A stretch of DNA of 64,000 bases from Alphaproteobacteria bacterium (GTDB taxonomy: Bacteria > Pseudomonadota > Alphaproteobacteria > ATCC43930 > CGMCC-115725), in NCBI GenBank assembly GCA_028871055.1, contig JAGWON010000008.1, positions 62,001-126,000 on the forward strand. Reading direction: 5' to 3'. The notes under the pieces are model-generated. The model searched no databases, was not told the DNA's origin, and saw only the letters and a list, made by a program, of their open reading frames with translations. A program made the translations under genes and the position numbers. Below are positions 400 through 59,591 of the stretch, piece after piece (position 1 is the stretch's first letter; each line of letters begins with the position of its first letter).

Positions 400-819
400 T
401 CAGTTGTCCTTCGCCCCTTCACGAATCCAACTGCGGATCGTGTCGCGGTCGCAACTCGAAAGCTGTTTCTTGCCATGCGGCATGCGCAATTCGGCCGACG
501 CTTGCCAATCGAGCAGCCACATCAGGTTGCAGGTGTCGGGACTGCCTGGAATGACCATGAGGCCGAATTTGGTGCCCTTCATCAGCCCGGCATAGGTCGT
601 AAGGTCGAGACCGCTCTTCTCGAATCCCTCACCGCCCGGTTGATGGCAGGAGATGCAGCGGCCTTTGAAGATCGGCGCGATATCGTCCGCATAGCTGATC
701 GGTGCCGGGTCGGCGGCGCGGACCTGCCGCGCCTGCATGGACAGTGCGGTGGTCAACGCAGCAACACCACCGGCGATCGCGAGTGCCAATTTGCGACGAT
801 TGATATCACCTGGTTTCAT
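400..819 (-). CDS. exported mono-haem cytochrome c
   Basis: A 139-residue periplasmic c-type cytochrome. The N-terminus has NRRKLALAIAG followed by a hydrophobic run, which fits a Tat or Sec signal (cleavage near QVRA/AD). The haem motif is C55-I-S-C58-H59 and M113 in LRMPHGKK is the likely distal ligand. Two further cysteines (C97, C123) could form a disulfide. The start is the ATG at 819; the in-frame TTG at 834 is rejected. The gene diverges from the molybdoenzyme operon and has a perfect FNR/FixK box 36 bases upstream of the ATG, so it is inferred to be expressed with that operon and to carry electrons to or from it. No direct evidence for its partner. Confidence 0.75.
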   Translation of the reverse strand: MKPGDINRRKLALAIAGGVAALTTALSMQARQVRAADPAPISYADDIAPIFKGRCISCHQPGGEGFEKSGLDLTTYAGLMKGTKFGLMVIPGSPDTCNLMWLLDWQASAELRMPHGKKQLSSCDRDTIRSWIREGAKDN

Positions 820-854
820 GCAAGCAATATTCAAAGCCTGTATTCGGTCCGTCC

Positions 855-868
855 TTGATCTGAATCAA
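855..868. promoter_or_regulatory. FNR/FixK-type box
   Basis: TTGATCTGAATCAA, a perfect match to the FNR/FixK/Anr consensus TTGAT-N4-ATCAA. It lies 36 bases upstream of the cytochrome c start on the minus strand and 289 bases upstream of the divergent molybdoenzyme operon. Its distance from the cytochrome ATG is short for a classical activating position at -41.5, so the exact role is open. Confidence 0.75.
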
Positions 869-1072
869 GTTCATCCGGCGGCATCGCATGTTCGTCGCCT
901 GCAAATGCGACATAGCGTCTCATCGACGGGCCGACGCGCACGCAAGGTCGACCGTTTCAAATGGCTGGCGAGAGTCTGAATCCGATCAGAGCGCGCTTTT
1001 AGCCGTGACAGGACGATGATCGCGGGTCATACGGAGCATCGCATAGGTAATATCGCGTATAGTTCCGCCCAA

Positions 1073-1086
1073 TTGATTCAGATCAA
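1073..1086. promoter_or_regulatory. FNR/FixK-type box upstream of molybdoenzyme operon
   Basis: TTGATTCAGATCAA, a second perfect TTGAT-N4-ATCAA site. Its centre is 78.5 bases before the ATG at 1158. A -10-like CATAAC at 1108-1113 would put the transcription start near 1120, with the box centred near -41.5, the normal class II activating position of FNR. This supports induction under low oxygen. Confidence 0.8.
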
Positions 1087-1157
1087 TACGGCCTCGCTGC
1101 ACTGCATCATAACGCTGATCGTCGTTGTGTCCGGCATCTATTCAGCGGAGGCGGACG

Positions 1158-2102
1158 ATGCATCAGGCGGACTCGCCGGTTAAACCAGAGGTTCCAAGCC
1201 GCCGCCAGTTGCTAAGCCGATTATCCGCCGGCGCCGCCGTCACAGCCGCCGCGGCTGCGACCGTCAAGGCCGCTATCGCACAGCCCAATCCCGAAACGCA
1301 CGCGCTGCCGGCTTATGCTGTGAGCGGCCGCGAGGCCGGCATGGATTTCTACGACTTCCACGGCCGCGAGGCCTTCGCCTACACCAAGAAGGACGGCAAC
1401 CTCGCGGTCGAAGGACAGGACGGCAAGCGTTGGACGATGCTCATCGACCTGCGCAAGTGCGTCGGCTGCCAGTCCTGCACTGCGGCCTGCAAGTTCGAGA
1501 ACAATATTCCCGAAGGCAGCTTCCGCACCTGGGTTCCCGACCTCGAGATCGGCACCTACCCCGAGGCGCGGCGCGCCTTCTTGCCCCGGCTGTGCAATCA
1601 CTGCGAGCGCCCGTCCTGCATCGAAGTGTGCCCGGCCGATGCCACGTGGCAGCGCAAGGACGGCATTGTCGAGATCGACTACGACCGGTGTTGGGGTTGC
1701 GGCTCCTGCGTCAACGCCTGTCCCTACGACGCCCGCTTCATCAATCCGATCACCCACACGGCCGACAAGTGCAATTTCTGCGCTCAGCGCGTCGACCAGG
1801 GTCTGCGGCCGGCTTGCGTCGAGACCTGCGTCGGCGGCGCGCGGCAGTTCGGCAACCTGAACGATCCCAACGATCCGGTTGCCCGGCAGATCAAGAGCGA
1901 GCCGGTGCAGGTCTTGAAGCCCAGCACCGGCAACCAGCCGCGCGTCTTCTACATCGCGCTGCCGGACCAGCTGCAGAACAATCTGCCGGGTCGTCCGACC
2001 TTGTGGTCGGAGATGTTCAAGGAGGCCGGTTTCAAGAATCCCGAGAGCGAGACCGCCGGAGTTTGGCAGATCGTCGCGACGCAGGAGGCCGACCATGGCT
2101 AA
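1158..2102 (+). CDS. Tat-exported 4x[4Fe-4S] ferredoxin subunit, TtrB-like
   Basis: A 314-residue electron-transfer subunit of a DMSO-reductase-family enzyme. Residues 14-42 form a Tat signal (S-R15-R16-QLL, then an Ala-rich core). Sixteen cysteines form four cluster motifs: C101-C104-C107-C111, C146-C149-C154-C158, C178-C181-C184-C188 and C205-C208-C220-C224. Export by its own Tat signal and a fused-length N-terminus are features of the TtrB group. The ATG at 1158 is chosen because GGAGG lies at 1147-1151; an upstream TTG at 1125 is ignored. The gene order B-C-A matches ttrBCA. It should pass electrons between the NrfD-type subunit and the catalytic subunit at the periplasmic face. Tetrathionate is inferred as substrate only from family resemblance. 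Confidence 0.8.
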   Translation: MHQADSPVKPEVPSRRQLLSRLSAGAAVTAAAAATVKAAIAQPNPETHALPAYAVSGREAGMDFYDFHGREAFAYTKKDGNLAVEGQDGKRWTMLIDLRKCVGCQSCTAACKFENNIPEGSFRTWVPDLEIGTYPEARRAFLPRLCNHCERPSCIEVCPADATWQRKDGIVEIDYDRCWGCGSCVNACPYDARFINPITHTADKCNFCAQRVDQGLRPACVETCVGGARQFGNLNDPNDPVARQIKSEPVQVLKPSTGNQPRVFYIALPDQLQNNLPGRPTLWSEMFKEAGFKNPESETAGVWQIVATQEADHG

Positions 2103-3276
2103 TCCGTTAACCACCCCGCAGCCGGTCGTCCCCGCCGCGCCGCTGCACGAATGGTGGAACATCGACCACTCGCGGCCGTTCTCGCTGCTGTTCGGCAATT
2201 ATTCCTGGCTGCTCGGCGCCGCCGGCGGCCTGACCGTCATCTGGGCGATCTACGTCCTGGCGGGCCGCCGCAAAGGGGTCGAATACCGTTTTGCGATGCC
2301 GCTCGCGGTGGCGCTGATCGTCGCCGGATTTCTCAACGTGCTGTCGGAAGCGGAACAGCCGTCCCGCATCCTCTACGGCTATGTTCTCGGCTGGCAGTAC
2401 TGGGACACCGCGATCATCAAGTACGGCATCATCCTGCTGCCGCTCTACCTAGTGCTGTGCTGGTGGCTGACGTTCCAGGCCATGGATCGCCAGGCGCTCG
2501 GCGCCGCCATCGCGCGGCTTGGTCCGGGTTTGGGTGTCCTTGCCGACATCTTCTCCCTCTGGAGCCGGCGCTACTCGGTGCTGGAGGCGGCCGGCCCGCG
2601 CCGCTGGATCGTCGGCGTGGTGATTGTTCTGTCGCTGTTCGCGCCGATGTACTCCGGCATCTTCCTGATGAACGAGCACGGCGCAGCGATCTGGAATTCG
2701 CCGGCGCCGGCGCTCTTGTTCATGGGCAGCGCCGTGGCGCAAGGCGCGCTGATGATGATGGTCGTGCTGCCGGCGCTGGCCTGGCTGGCGACCGGCCGCG
2801 ACGCGCCGTCGTTGGTCGCGCCGCTGCGCTGGACCGCGGTCATCAGCATCGCGATCGAAGCGGTGGTGTGGTTCGGCTGGATGTGGTGGATCGGCCGCTT
2901 CGGCAGCATCGAGGATCTGCGGGCCGCCGATCTCTATATGGGGCCCTATGCGTCGACGGTTTTCTGGAACTGGACCGTCGTCGGCGTCGTCGGCCCGCTG
3001 CTGTTGCTGGTGACGCCGCTTGGCCGGCGGCGCTGGGCGCAATGGCTGGCCGCGCTCGGCGTCATGTGGGGCAGCTACGCGGTGCGCATGCTGGTCCTGA
3101 TCGGCGGCGAGGCGCTGATCCGCAGCGGCGCCGGCTATCAAGCCTTCACCGCGAGCGCAGAGGTCCTGCGCTACACCGGCTTCAGCGTGCTGGTATTCAT
3201 CGGCATGCTGGCCGTTCTGTTGCTTGCGCTTCCGGCGGATCGGGCGCCGGAGCTCGGCTCGTCGTCCGCTCGCTGA
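2095..3276 (+). CDS. NrfD/TtrC-type quinol-interacting membrane subunit
   Basis: A 393-residue polytopic protein of the NrfD/PsrC family, which exchanges electrons between the quinone pool and a periplasmic iron-sulfur protein. Hydrophobic segments run nearly throughout (for example residues 33-52, 70-86, 104-124, 176-195, 210-235, 250-270, 300-318, 325-345, 365-385). The start overlaps the end of the ferredoxin gene by 8 bases and is preceded by AGGAGG, so translation is probably coupled. Its position between the ferredoxin and the catalytic subunit fits TtrC. Length is somewhat above the roughly 340 residues of enteric TtrC. Confidence 0.78.
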   Translation: MANPLTTPQPVVPAAPLHEWWNIDHSRPFSLLFGNYSWLLGAAGGLTVIWAIYVLAGRRKGVEYRFAMPLAVALIVAGFLNVLSEAEQPSRILYGYVLGWQYWDTAIIKYGIILLPLYLVLCWWLTFQAMDRQALGAAIARLGPGLGVLADIFSLWSRRYSVLEAAGPRRWIVGVVIVLSLFAPMYSGIFLMNEHGAAIWNSPAPALLFMGSAVAQGALMMMVVLPALAWLATGRDAPSLVAPLRWTAVISIAIEAVVWFGWMWWIGRFGSIEDLRAADLYMGPYASTVFWNWTVVGVVGPLLLLVTPLGRRRWAQWLAALGVMWGSYAVRMLVLIGGEALIRSGAGYQAFTASAEVLRYTGFSVLVFIGMLAVLLLALPADRAPELGSSSAR

Positions 3277-3305
3277 CCGGATAATGGATCGATAGGAGCG
3301 TAGCG

Positions 3306-6300
3306 ATGATCAAGCGCAGAACTTTCCTCAAGGCCGCGGCCGTCGGTGGCGTCGGTGCCGGGTTCGGCGGTTTCTACGACACGCTCTATCACCTCGTTCC
3401 CTTCAACGACCGCGGCCGCAAGGCGCTCCATCGTGTTTACGGCAACGCCGACAGCCCCGAGTGGCTGCGCGATCCGGCCACCGGCAAGCTGGCGCCCAAT
3501 CCCGACTGGACCCTGCGCCACACCGTGGATTTGCAGTGCCACAGCGAATGCGGCCTGCGGGTCAAGATCAACCGCAAGACCGGGCGGGTGCAACGCATCA
3601 TCGGCAATCCCTACCATTCCCACACCTTGATCGACTACGCCGGACCCGACACGCCGCTGCTGGCAACGGCGGCCTTTCCGGGCACGGTCTGCGCCCGCGG
3701 CAACGCCGGCATCCAGACCGCCTACGACCCGTACCGCATCACCGTGCCGCTCAAGCGCAAGGGCGCGCGCGGCAGCGGCCAGTGGCAGCCGATTAGTTGG
3801 GAACAGTTGATCAAGGAAGTGACCGACGGCGGCAAGATTTTCGCCGACACCGGCGATCCCGCGAGCCAGGATATCGACGTTCTGGGCTTCAAAGGACTCT
3901 ACGCCAAGCGCGGCGAGCTGATGAATCCTGACGCGCCCGAGTTGGGCCATCGCACCAACGGCTACGTGTTCGAGGGCGGCCGCATCGTCGGCAGCCGCAA
4001 GGCCTTCGCGCTCCGCTTCAACCAGGCCTTCGGCAGCGTCAACTGCTTCGAGCACACCAATATCTGCGAGGTCAGCCATCACGTCGCGACCGCGCAGGTC
4101 TATCCCGGCCAGCACATGACCAAGCCCGACGTCATGGCGGCCGAGTTCATCATCTACTGGGGAACCCAGCCGGGCGACGCCAATTTCCCGATGCAACTCT
4201 TCGCCAAATACGCGGCCCAGGCGCGGGCCAAGGCCGGCGGACTTAAATATGTCGTGGTCGATCCGCTGCTGAGCCGCGGTGGCGTGATGGGCGATAGTGC
4301 CGCGTGGTTGCCGATCAAACCCGGCACCGACGGCGCCCTCGCCCTCGCCATGATCCGCTGGATTATCGAGAACGGGCGCTACAACGCCGATTACCTCAGC
4401 CATCCGACCCAGAAAGCGGCGGAAGCCGCCGGCGAGTTGTCGCACACCGACGCCGCGCATCTGGTGGTCGACGATCCCGCCCACGCCGCGCACGGCCGCT
4501 TCCTCACCGCGAAGCTGGCCGGTGTCGCCGGCCAGGCGAAGGATCCCGAGCTCGATCGCATGGTGATCGACGCCGATCGCAAGACGCCGGTCGCGGCGGC
4601 GAGCAACTCGCGCGCGCTCGTCGAGTACACTGGCACGGTCAACGGCATACGGGTGAAGAGCGCGTTCACACGGTTGCGCGAGGCCGCGGCCGCCCACACG
4701 ATCGAGCAATATGCGGAAATCTGCGGCATCGGCGCCGAGAAGATCGTCGCTCTGGCGCGCGAGTTCACCAGCCACGGCCGCAAGGCGGTGTGCGAGGCCT
4801 ATCGCGGCCCGTGCAAGCATCCCAACGGCTATTACAACACCGTCGCGATCCTCTTGCTCAACCTGCTCGTCGGCAACTCCAATTGGACCGGCGGGCTGAC
4901 CCTGGGCGGCGGCGGCTATCCCGCCGCCAAGGGCCGTTACGACGTGATGGCCGTGCCCGCCGCCAAGGGTGCCGCGTACGGCGTGAAGCTGTCGCGCGAG
5001 GAGGTGCGCTACGAGGATTCGAGCGAATACAAGCGCAAGGTGGCCGCGGGACAGAATCCCTATCCAGCGAAGCGGCCGTGGTTCCCGTTGAGCTTCGACG
5101 TCTTTTCCGACCTGGTGCCGTCGGCGGTGCAGCGCTACCCCTACGGCGTCGACATCCTGTTCTGGATGATGGCGACGCCGTTCTACAGCGTCCCCGGCCA
5201 GGGCAACGACGAGTTGATCGCCGCGGTCAAGGACCCCAAGAACATCCCGTTGATCATCGCCTGCGACATCGTCGTCGGCGATACCAGCATGTATGCCGAC
5301 TACATCGTTCCCGACGGCACGTTCCTCGAGTACTGGACGCAGATCGATACCATGCCGACGACCCTGACCAGGGGCACCGGCATCCGCTGGCCGGTCATCG
5401 AGTTGACGGAAAAGGCGCCCGACGGCCGGCATATGTGCCTCGAAGAGTTTCTGATCGACGTCGCTAAGCGCATCGGCATGCCCGGCTACGGCGCGAATGC
5501 GATCCCCGACGCCGGCGGACGGATGTGGCCGCTGCATCGCAAGGAGGATTGGTACCTGAAGGCCACGGCGAACGTCGCCTTTGCCTCCGGCGGACCCGAT
5601 GAGCGGGTTCTCGACGTCACCGCCGAGGAGATGCAGGTCAACGACCTCGGCGGCTTCCGCGACACGTTCAAGGCGACGCTGAAGCCGGAGGAGTGGCCCA
5701 AGGCGCTGTCGGTATTGGCGAAAGGCGGGCGCTTCGAGCCGCATGGCAATGCGCGCCAAGGCGACAAGCTCACCCATCGCTTCACCAAGACGCTGCACTT
5801 CTACGCCGAGGAAGTCGCGCTGACCCGCAACAGCATGACGGGGGAGCCCTTCCTGGGCACGACCACCTGGGTCGAGCCGACGACGGCGCTGGGCACGCCG
5901 CTCGACAAGCTCGACAATCCCAAGGACTGGCCGCTGACCATCCTCACCTTCAAGGGGGCGCTGCAGACCCATTCGCGACTCGCCTCGAACTACGTGCTGC
6001 GCCAGATCATGCCGGTCAACGGCATCCAGGTGGCCGCCGCCGACGCGCGCCGCCTCGGCATCCGCGACGGCGAGCAGGTCTGGGTGGTGACGCCGCACGG
6101 CAAGCGCAAGGCCACCGCGGTGGTGATCGAAGGCTTGCGGCCCGGCGTGATCACCTTCAATGTTGGCTACGGCCATTGGGGCTACGGCGCCACCAACTAC
6201 CAGCTCGGCGGCAAGCGCATCGAGGGCGATCGCGTCCGCCGCGCCGGCATCCATCTCAATCCGATCATGCGCCGCGATCCGGGCGTCGAGCAGATGGCGC

Positions 6301-6377
6301 TGATGGATGTGGTCGGCGGTAGCGTCGTCTTTTTCAACACCCGCGCCCGGCTCGAAAAAGACGGCGCCCATGTCTGA
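3306..6377 (+). CDS. molybdopterin oxidoreductase, TtrA-like catalytic subunit
   Basis: A 1023-residue Tat-exported member of the DMSO reductase family, near the length of enteric tetrathionate reductase TtrA. Residues 2-20 form the Tat signal (KRRTFLKAA). The N-terminal cluster site reads D75-x2-C78-x3-C82-x46-C129; the first cysteine normally present is an aspartate. C254 in NICEVSHH is the likely molybdenum ligand. The C-terminal molydopterin-binding domain covers roughly residues 880-1005 (SNYVLRQIMPVNG onwards). TAGGAGCG precedes the ATG. Reaction: two-electron reduction or oxidation of a sulfur or metalloid oxyanion in the periplasm; the true substrate (tetrathionate, selenate, arsenate or another) cannot be told from sequence reading. 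Confidence 0.8.
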   Translation: MIKRRTFLKAAAVGGVGAGFGGFYDTLYHLVPFNDRGRKALHRVYGNADSPEWLRDPATGKLAPNPDWTLRHTVDLQCHSECGLRVKINRKTGRVQRIIGNPYHSHTLIDYAGPDTPLLATAAFPGTVCARGNAGIQTAYDPYRITVPLKRKGARGSGQWQPISWEQLIKEVTDGGKIFADTGDPASQDIDVLGFKGLYAKRGELMNPDAPELGHRTNGYVFEGGRIVGSRKAFALRFNQAFGSVNCFEHTNICEVSHHVATAQVYPGQHMTKPDVMAAEFIIYWGTQPGDANFPMQLFAKYAAQARAKAGGLKYVVVDPLLSRGGVMGDSAAWLPIKPGTDGALALAMIRWIIENGRYNADYLSHPTQKAAEAAGELSHTDAAHLVVDDPAHAAHGRFLTAKLAGVAGQAKDPELDRMVIDADRKTPVAAASNSRALVEYTGTVNGIRVKSAFTRLREAAAAHTIEQYAEICGIGAEKIVALAREFTSHGRKAVCEAYRGPCKHPNGYYNTVAILLLNLLVGNSNWTGGLTLGGGGYPAAKGRYDVMAVPAAKGAAYGVKLSREEVRYEDSSEYKRKVAAGQNPYPAKRPWFPLSFDVFSDLVPSAVQRYPYGVDILFWMMATPFYSVPGQGNDELIAAVKDPKNIPLIIACDIVVGDTSMYADYIVPDGTFLEYWTQIDTMPTTLTRGTGIRWPVIELTEKAPDGRHMCLEEFLIDVAKRIGMPGYGANAIPDAGGRMWPLHRKEDWYLKATANVAFASGGPDERVLDVTAEEMQVNDLGGFRDTFKATLKPEEWPKALSVLAKGGRFEPHGNARQGDKLTHRFTKTLHFYAEEVALTRNSMTGEPFLGTTTWVEPTTALGTPLDKLDNPKDWPLTILTFKGALQTHSRLASNYVLRQIMPVNGIQVAAADARRLGIRDGEQVWVVTPHGKRKATAVVIEGLRPGVITFNVGYGHWGYGATNYQLGGKRIEGDRVRRAGIHLNPIMRRDPGVEQMALMDVVGGSVVFFNTRARLEKDGAHV

Positions 6378-7017
6378 GCCGAGCCTGTCGCGATTGCTCG
6401 CGGCGGCCGCGGCATTGCTGTTGCACCCGCCCGACGCATCGACGTTGGCAGTTCTTGCCGAAAGCAACGGGATCGAGATCGATCCGGCGCAGGCGAAGCA
6501 GGATTTCTATGACGTGTTGTGCGTGCCCCAATCCGGTCGGTACATCCCGTCCTATGCGCACGTGCTTGCTCAGGGCAGGGTGCGGGACGGCAACTGGTGG
6601 CATTTCCCGCCGCCGCGCTTCGACGGCGGCGATGCCTTGGCGCGTTGGTACGATGCGGTCGGCTTCGACACCCTGCAGCTCGACGCCGACCCGATGCTCA
6701 AGGGACCCCATCGGCCGCTCGACCAGATCGGCTTCGTCCTCGCATACCTGGCGGGGTTGGTCGCGAGCCGCGAGACCGGTACGACCGACAAGGCCACCGC
6801 CGACGCCATCATCGCCGGTTTCTTGACCGAGCATGTGGGGGCTTGGCTCGATCGCTTCTGCAATCTTCTCGGTGGTAGCGGAAGCCCGTATCTGGAAGCT
6901 GTCGCGAACGCCGTGCTCGAAGCCCTGCTGATGGCTCGCGCGGACTTTCCGGCCCCGGTCGTCGAGACAACGTCCGCGGAAGTCTCATATGCACGGCCAG
7001 AGGTGATACAGCCATGA
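6370..7017 (+). CDS. TorD/DmsD-family Tat proofreading chaperone
   Basis: A 215-residue, largely helical cytoplasmic protein (MSEPSLSRLLAAAAALLLHPPD...). It has the TorD/NarJ pattern FYDVLCVPQSGRYIPSYAHV near residues 45-65 and the DHLGFVLAYLA-type segment (LDQIGFVLAYLAGLV) near 117. Such chaperones bind the Tat signal of the cognate molybdoenzyme and hold export until cofactor insertion. The start overlaps the end of the catalytic-subunit gene by 8 bases, so it is co-translated. The client is inferred to be the molybdoenzyme encoded just upstream. Confidence 0.72.
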   Translation: MSEPSLSRLLAAAAALLLHPPDASTLAVLAESNGIEIDPAQAKQDFYDVLCVPQSGRYIPSYAHVLAQGRVRDGNWWHFPPPRFDGGDALARWYDAVGFDTLQLDADPMLKGPHRPLDQIGFVLAYLAGLVASRETGTTDKATADAIIAGFLTEHVGAWLDRFCNLLGGSGSPYLEAVANAVLEALLMARADFPAPVVETTSAEVSYARPEVIQP

Positions 7018-7352
7018 GCGCGAAACCCAAGGACGAATTGCCCGGCTTCGCCCGCCGCGTCGCGGAAACGAAGCAGGAATTGTGGAAGGCTTACGAGAAG
7101 CTCGGCCAAGCGTGTACCGAGGCCGGCCCGCTCACCGGCACGGTGCTCCATTGCGTCAAGCTGGCGCTTGCCATCGGCGGCGGCAGCGAAGGCGCCGTTC
7201 ACAGCCATGCCCGGCGCGCGCGCGCCGCCGGGGTCGCACCGGAAGCGATCCGCCACGTCGCGTACCTCGCCGTCACGACGCTCGGCTTTCCGCGCGCCGT
7301 CGCCGCCTTGACCTGGATCGAGGACGTGCTGTCGCCGTCCTCCGATGCGTGA
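7014..7352 (+). CDS. AhpD/carboxymuconolactone decarboxylase-like protein lacking the CxxC pair
   Basis: A 112-residue all-helical protein of the CMD/AhpD fold: the core LALAIGGGSEGAVHSHARRA (residues 50-69) followed by AVTTLGFPRAVAAL matches the family helix pair. In AhpD the equivalent position holds a redox-active CxxC next to the histidines; here it reads S-E-G-A with H63 and H65 kept, so peroxidase or disulfide chemistry is unlikely. Other cysteines are C34 and C47. ATGA overlap with the chaperone gene shows membership of the molybdoenzyme operon. Role unknown; assembly or small-molecule handling is a guess. Confidence 0.65.
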   Translation: MSAKPKDELPGFARRVAETKQELWKAYEKLGQACTEAGPLTGTVLHCVKLALAIGGGSEGAVHSHARRARAAGVAPEAIRHVAYLAVTTLGFPRAVAALTWIEDVLSPSSDA

Positions 7353-7665
7353 GCGAACTCTGAAATCCCCAGGTGTCGTCGGGCTGACGCGCCGTCAATG
7401 GATGCGTTGCTGCGTGGGCGGGCTGCTGTTGGCGATGGCGGGCATTGAATCGGCACATGCTGACGCCAAACTGCCGAAGGCCGCCGTCTCTTACCGAGAT
7501 CATCCGAATGGCAGCAAGGAGTGCGCGAACTGTTCCCACTATATTCGCGCTATTGGCGCGGCCGATCCGGAGGCGCCGGGGCGTTGTCAGATCGTGGCCG
7601 GGCCCGTCGGCCCGCAGGGCTATTGCATCGTTTACGCGGAGCGCAATCCCAAAAACGGCTGTTGA
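7345..7665 (+). CDS. high-potential iron-sulfur protein (HiPIP), Tat-exported
   Basis: A 106-residue protein with a Tat signal (L-T-R16-R17-QWMRCC then GGLLLAMAG, cleavage near SAHA/DA). The mature part has the HiPIP cysteine pattern C60-x2-C63-x17-C81-x12-C94, with C94 in GPQGYC, the typical G-Y/W-C context of HiPIPs. These small periplasmic [4Fe-4S] proteins shuttle electrons between the bc1 complex or membrane enzymes and periplasmic acceptors or donors. The start overlaps the preceding gene by 8 bases, making it the last gene of the molybdoenzyme operon. A HiPIP is not a usual partner of ttrBCA, which makes the electron path of this operon unusual. Confidence 0.8.
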   Translation: MRERTLKSPGVVGLTRRQWMRCCVGGLLLAMAGIESAHADAKLPKAAVSYRDHPNGSKECANCSHYIRAIGAADPEAPGRCQIVAGPVGPQGYCIVYAERNPKNGC

Positions 7666-59237: not shown

Positions 59238-59591
59238 TTATTTCACCGTCACCACAAGGTGCATGGTGGGATGGATGGCGCACAGCACCTGGTAGGTGCC
59301 AGGGTGATCGAATTCCAGATCCACCGTTGTGCCCACCGGCTGTTCGCCGGAGTCGAACTTCATCGTCGCCGAATCGACATAGACATGGTGGGTCACGCGG
59401 TCGTCATTGATGACGTGGACGACGGTGCCGCGCGCGATGATGAGCGTGTCCGGATGAAAATGGCGGTTGCGCTGGCTCACGATGACGATATTGACGGCAC
59501 CCGCAACCGGAACCACGACCGATAGAAATACTGCCAGCGCAAGAACGCCGCCGGTTAGATCCGATTTTCGTGGCGTCACGCGAAAAGCCAT
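59238..59591 (-). CDS. exported cupredoxin (plastocyanin-like)
   Basis: A 117-residue blue copper-type protein. A hydrophobic signal or anchor lies at residues 13-31. Type 1 copper ligands are visible: H in VTHHVYVDS, then C, H and M in VLCAIHPTMHL. The loop C-x3-H-x2-M is the usual short type. It is convergent with the peroxidase gene with only 3 bases between; functional pairing as the peroxidase's electron donor is plausible but not shown. Confidence 0.85.
   Translation of the reverse strand: MAFRVTPRKSDLTGGVLALAVFLSVVVPVAGAVNIVIVSQRNRHFHPDTLIIARGTVVHVINDDRVTHHVYVDSATMKFDSGEQPVGTTVDLEFDHPGTYQVLCAIHPTMHLVVTVK

Follow-up and report, generated by a model that had tools for sequence, protein, structure and literature searches.

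The operon analysed here belongs to a broad lineage of molybdoenzymes that comprises TtrA, SrdA and the alternative arsenate reductases [PMC7331816, PMC10100899], and some members of this lineage are already suspected to be arsenate reductases. Its nearest large sister group is that of the enterobacterial tetrathionate reductase TtrBCA, which shares with it the B-C-A gene order, twin-arginine (TAT) signals on A and B and an NrfD-type anchor, but has another Mo-site motif and other sensors and lacks the TorD-CMD-HiPIP-cytochrome set described below. Also of this broad lineage are the Ttr-type enzymes of Pyrobaculum aerophilum (PAE1265) and Melioribacter roseus (MROS_1076), which are induced by arsenate; the M. 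roseus gene adjoins ArrTSR and ars genes, and its transcript was raised with arsenate, not clearly significantly [PMC5492636]. Two kinds of arsenite oxidase are also relevant. Arx (arxB'ABCD, arxXSR) likewise has ferredoxin, NrfD and TorD subunits, but its catalytic subunit is of the ArrA/ArxA family, its gene order differs and it has no HiPIP. Aio is under AioXSR-type control and uses a periplasmic high-potential acceptor, but AioA forms a different branch and is partnered by a Rieske protein.

The window, the whole 64,000-nucleotide stretch of alphaproteobacterial DNA that was analysed, carries near one end a seven-gene locus which an initial annotation described as tetrathionate-reductase-like. 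Computational analysis of this locus and its relatives suggests a different substrate, and the most probable role is a membrane-anchored arsenic oxidoreductase.

Organisation of the operon

The features of the region are as follows, in window coordinates.

400-834, minus strand: exported mono-haem c-type cytochrome (CxxCH) with a PSCyt1 domain, divergent from the operon (Pfam PF07635, 31 bits).
855-868: FNR-type box TTGATctgaATCAA, exact consensus, proximal to the cytochrome gene.
1073-1086: FNR-type box TTGATtcagATCAA, exact consensus, 85 bases before the ferredoxin start.
1158-2102, plus strand: B subunit, a four-cluster ferredoxin with a TAT signal (best NCBIfam match TtrB, 262 bits, below the cut-off of 416).
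2095-3276, plus strand: C subunit, predicted to be a divergent NrfD-type membrane anchor on the quinone side (PF03916 and TtrC matches of relatives; structure model against ActC and PsrC).
3306-6377, plus strand: A subunit, the Mo-bisPGD catalytic subunit, with a TAT signal and Mo-ligand Cys254 in EHTNICEVSHH (TtrA model, tree and motif).
6370-7017, plus strand: D, a maturation chaperone of the TorD/NarJ family (PF02613, 24 bits).
7014-7352, plus strand: small CMD-fold protein with EGAVHSH instead of the AhpD CxxC (PF02627, 45 bits).
7345-7665, plus strand: HiPIP with a TAT-type signal and four cluster Cys (PDB HiPIP 3h31, E 1e-8; Iro model 48 bits, below the cut-off of 100).

All seven genes named in the initial annotation, the B-C-A molybdoenzyme, TorD, CMD protein, HiPIP and divergent mono-haem cytochrome c, are present. 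The six co-directional genes (ferredoxin, NrfD, Mo subunit, TorD, CMD, HiPIP) overlap at four of the five junctions, so that the description of all starts as overlapping holds except between nrfD and ttrA, where there is a 29-base gap. Both FNR boxes lie between the divergent cytochrome gene and the operon.

The window's NrfD alone matched no Pfam or NCBIfam model, and a PDB profile search with the anchor sequence gave no match. Among the anchors of its closest relatives, however, 5 of 11 match NrfD (PF03916, best E 4.5e-18), with TtrC matches too, and the predicted fold of the window's protein (mean pLDDT 69.6) matches ActC of alternative complex III and PsrC (2vpw_C). The NrfD fold is therefore assigned through relatives and a structure model, as a prediction. 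The anchors of the window (2095-3276), L011, L012, L013 and L018 fall into two types that are 33% alike, against roughly 69-73% for the Mo subunits, a pattern that an exchange of the anchor or its rapid evolution would give.

The CMD protein had been called AhpD-like. The fold is confirmed, but the CxxC of AhpD is missing and AhpD peroxidase chemistry is thus not expected; an AhpD-type peroxide defence was dropped as a role for lack of this Cys pair. The HiPIP assignment rests on the four cluster Cys and the match to a solved HiPIP. Elsewhere in the window, a small exported cupredoxin-like protein (59238-59591, minus strand) is a possible further periplasmic electron carrier.

Relationships of the catalytic subunit

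A scan of genome contigs gathered 80 relatives of the window's A subunit, of which 12 are ∼65-82% identical to it and the next drop to 40% or less. A search of the order added one further member (L098, in genome G013) to this set; genome G012 carries the same contig as L019. In a tree rooted on the ArxA proteins of L115 and L119, and containing no named SrdA sequence, the window's A subunit lies in its own clade of 14 (SH-aLRT 100) and does not group with ArxA. Enterobacterial plasmid enzymes, 51% identical to the window's subunit and its closest relatives outside the clade, join it with full support, and the clade plus plasmid enzymes (17) are sister to true Ttr (16 rows, support 97). A group of 51 rows from many phyla stands apart from all of these. 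Phylogeny thus places the subunit outside characterised TtrA, and the suggestion of a distinct enzyme in the initial annotation is upheld. The operon type is rare: it was found in 3 of 43 genomes of the order, the three further genomes of the genus all lacked it, and no clade member beyond the window was detected among 385 genomes of the class and 398 of the phylum.

Membership of the broad TtrA/SrdA/alternative arsenate reductase lineage is indicated by nearest relatives, a Cys Mo ligand, the B-C-A order and the TAT signal on B. Models for other arsenic enzymes gave scores far below their cut-offs (ArrA NF041714, 93 bits against 1600; AioA TIGR02693, 20 bits against 359), and the gene order B-C-A-D is unlike arxB'ABCD.

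A tetrathionate reductase, or a thiosulfate dehydrogenase operating in reverse, working with a HiPIP was the starting view. TtrA and TtrB are the best-scoring NCBIfam families for the A and B subunits, gene order and the TAT signal on B are as in Ttr [PMC2500031], and true Ttr is the sister group. Against this, the window's A subunit scores 682 bits and that of L011 708 bits with the TtrA model (NF011567), far under the curated cut-off of 1750, while an enteric control (L079) reaches 2042. As two members of the true Ttr group also fall below the cut-off (1263 and 1149 bits), this score alone is not decisive. True TtrA proteins are, moreover, only 34-40% identical to the window's, with 34-36% for those of enterobacteria. 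Since the MAG SKS4.bin47 encodes a clade enzyme (L011) alongside a true Ttr (L020), the two are unlikely to be functional duplicates.

The Mo site also differs. Around the Mo-ligand Cys (C254) the window's sequence is EHTNICEVSHHVA, the clade reads H(T/V)NxCE(V/L)SHH and the plasmid group HTNICELSHH; the true Ttr motif, CG followed by R four positions on, is absent. In the large group, CExSHH is found in 22 of 50 members, 12 of these 22 with an X sensor gene, and most others have HTTVCQGSLYF. The HxNxCExSHH of the clade resembles the HTTxCEQSHH of ArrX-linked relatives and not TtrA. Together with the neighbouring genes described below, the tree and the motif led to tetrathionate being dropped, and this substrate is now considered improbable.

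The alternative arsenate reductases MROS_1076 and PAE1265 and their group are like the window's enzyme in sharing the broad lineage, XSR/ArrTSR and ars genes nearby, and a CExSHH or HTTVCQ motif, and in having a Cys-less CMD beside some members. They differ in forming a separate clade, about 35-38% identical, with arsenate-type X sensors, and neither a HiPIP nor the divergent cytochrome was found in this group. The window's Cys-less CMD (EGAVHSH) has counterparts of about 40-43% identity directly after the Ttr-type Mo gene in L043, L066 and L078, from Ignavibacteria and relatives; that it accompanies X-linked enzymes in Ignavibacteria suggests that it is tied to the same chemistry.

Conservation of accessory genes and promoters

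Co-occurrence of all seven genes, proposed earlier as a check, was seen only in part. The full set is confined to the window, L014 and L015, with the HiPIP gene preceding the CMD gene in the latter two. The HiPIP gene is present in 9 clade loci (window, L011-L016, L018, L019), with the cluster Cys kept in all 9, and is absent beside L009 and L017 (Rhodopila globiformis). CMD is kept in 4 (window, L009, L014, L015), as is the divergent cytochrome (window, L014, L015, L016), the last three cytochromes being 40-45% identical to the window's. TorD is found in every clade locus whose contig reaches far enough. Beside the operon of L013, at 4875-5480, is an ArsD-CMD fusion whose CMD domain keeps the CxxC.

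Of 13 upstream regions, 7 have an exact FNR box (L009, L012, L014, L015, L016 and L098 besides the window), where shuffled sequences give an expectation of 0.0075, and near matches occur in L019, L027, L013 and L092. The host also encodes a regulator of the Crp/Fnr type (L127) that has a Cys cluster near its N terminus. FNR control, as first proposed, is consistent with these findings. Sigma-54 -24/-12 sites, with one mismatch, were found only in L011 and L018 (2 observed against 0.115 expected), and these two loci carry XSR genes with a sigma-54 response regulator and have no FNR boxes.

Arsenic-linked genes and direction of electron flow

In L011 and L018 the X-S-R genes are divergent and lie upstream of the operon, as has been described for arx clusters [PMC6549141]. 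Their X proteins match AioX in the PDB with E 3e-58 and ArrX with 1e-40, matches to PhnD/PtxB being far weaker, and among plasmid relatives the X of L011 comes closest to that of the Sulfuricella arx cluster (70.7% identical). Both retain the seven arsenic-pocket residues named for AioX [PMC5908839], namely Tyr88, Cys106, Tyr131, Ser161, Ser163, His192 and Asp210, and an AioX/ArxX-type loop. A tree of X proteins splits into arsenite-type and arsenate-type (100/100), with X of L011 and L018 among AioX/ArxX, whereas the X proteins of the 51-row group have another loop and group with ArrX. Since X proteins of Alpha-, Beta- and Gammaproteobacteria are usually arsenite-type, this assignment may partly follow taxonomy.

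Sensors of the AioX/ArxX kind bind the substrate of the cognate enzyme, and arsenite was bound by AioX and ArxX, whereas antimonite and selenate were not [PMC5908839]. The AioX-family sensors of the clade accordingly speak against another chalcophile oxyanion, selenate or antimonate/antimonite, as substrate. Such a substrate would agree with the position of SrdA in the same broad lineage [PMC10100899, PMC7331816] and with the origin of one plasmid relative in Enterobacter ludwigii Sb-9, from tailing mud, and is judged rather unlikely.

Arsenic resistance genes adjoin the operon in L013 (arsA, arsD, arsC, arsR) and L014 (arsB, arsR). Counting these, 4 of 14 clade loci have X or ars genes nearby, whereas none of the 16 true Ttr loci does (p 0.037, or 0.018 with the plasmid group counted once); X itself is present at 18 of 50 loci in the large group, again against none of the 16 (p 0.003). 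That only 4 of the 14 have such neighbours, within the locus DNA examined, counts against an arsenic substrate. The window's operon itself has no arsenic gene next to it, and X was not found in the host genome, in a search run without a positive control. The host has acr3 and arsC together on another contig (read by eye), a pair that is commonplace. On a plasmid of Azoarcus sp. KH32C (L116, 688-17495), arsenite-type X-S-R and ars genes adjoin a PhsA-like B-C-A-TorD enzyme that looks arsenic-linked.

The plasmid sister enzymes are embedded in ars islands of plasmids (IncFII and others) from Citrobacter arsenatis LY-1, C. freundii, E. ludwigii Sb-9 and Salmonella London (L092, L093, L094, L129), flanked by arsDABC and another arsC, seen in part in some plasmids. 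They share the Mo motif, the first four genes and an FNR-like box with the window's operon but lack CMD, HiPIP and cytochrome, and their annotation goes no further than hypothetical, DsrO and molybdopterin-dependent oxidoreductase. No report on this plasmid sister or on the HiPIP-bearing clade, or linking a Ttr-type enzyme, a HiPIP and arsenic, was found among open-licence papers.

Sensors, neighbouring genes and Mo-site motif together make arsenic the best-supported substrate, and probably the correct one, in place of the tetrathionate implied by the initial annotation. The direction is less firmly supported. We favour, at a probability of about one in two, a periplasmic, membrane-anchored molybdoenzyme for arsenic oxyanions that would most likely oxidise arsenite under low oxygen. 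TorD would insert the cofactor, and the Mo-bisPGD would take two electrons from As(III) in the periplasm. The ferredoxin subunit would pass these outwards. From there ubiquinone would receive them by way of the NrfD anchor, or the respiratory chain by way of the co-encoded HiPIP and mono-haem cytochrome c, or both routes would be used. FNR-type regulators would switch the operon on at low oxygen, an arsenite-sensing XSR/sigma-54 switch taking their place in L011 and L018.

Oxidation is favoured by the arsenite-type sensor, the HiPIP and the quinone of the host. Host UbiA scores above its cut-off, MenD does not and MqnA/D are absent, which indicates that ubiquinone is the only quinone made. One haem-copper oxidase was found, aa3-like by its neighbours. 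Contig C15 of genome G000 (L110:4220-7039) encodes an enzyme of the type II DMSO reductase family (1329 bits with TIGR03479, above the cut-off), and by eye the adjoining ORFs look like chaperone and cytochrome subunits.

The main rival is a respiratory arsenate reductase under FNR control, in which electrons would pass from quinol via NrfD and ferredoxin to arsenate, the HiPIP and cytochrome being accessory or serving another process. FNR boxes in most clade promoters fit reduction at least as well as oxidation, and the arsenate-type sensors in relatives of the large group, the arsenate-induced enzymes of P. aerophilum and M. roseus, and the plasmid sister inside the ars island of C. arsenatis LY-1 point the same way; Citrobacter can make menaquinone. 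However, only arsenite-type sensors were found within the clade. Ubiquinone (∼+110 mV), the sole quinone of the window's host, is poorly placed to reduce arsenate near neutral pH, although this argument is weakened by arsenate being a stronger oxidant at acidic pH. The potential of a HiPIP is too high for arsenate to be reduced at about neutral pH, which makes the HiPIP an implausible donor. Arsenate reduction is accordingly the less likely direction for this operon, while the lack of a HiPIP beside the R. globiformis operon counts against the favoured reading of arsenite oxidation. The two are not exclusive, since bidirectional enzymes are known in this molybdoenzyme superfamily.

The initial proposal of electron flow to periplasmic carriers (HiPIP and cytochrome c) fits the data, and its 'oxidase running in reverse' was well guessed. 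Somewhat more tentatively, Aio and Arx could be joined by a third type of arsenite oxidase in this clade, one that arose separately inside the TtrA lineage and has a HiPIP and a cytochrome c as its dedicated electron acceptors; its plasmid-borne sister in enterobacteria would act as a respiratory arsenate reductase.

In genome surveys such operons would receive the label tetrathionate reductase or that of an unnamed molybdopterin oxidoreductase, and arsenic respiration would consequently go unseen. From its gene context, the plasmid enzyme is a candidate plasmid-borne respiratory arsenate reductase, and hence a candidate for growth on arsenate without ArrA, as reported and left unexplained for Citrobacter TSA-1 [PMC9751042]. 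If arsenite oxidation is the correct reading, the clade would add a separate enzyme type to Aio and Arx together with a new acceptor route, and bacteria would have a further way to respire arsenic.
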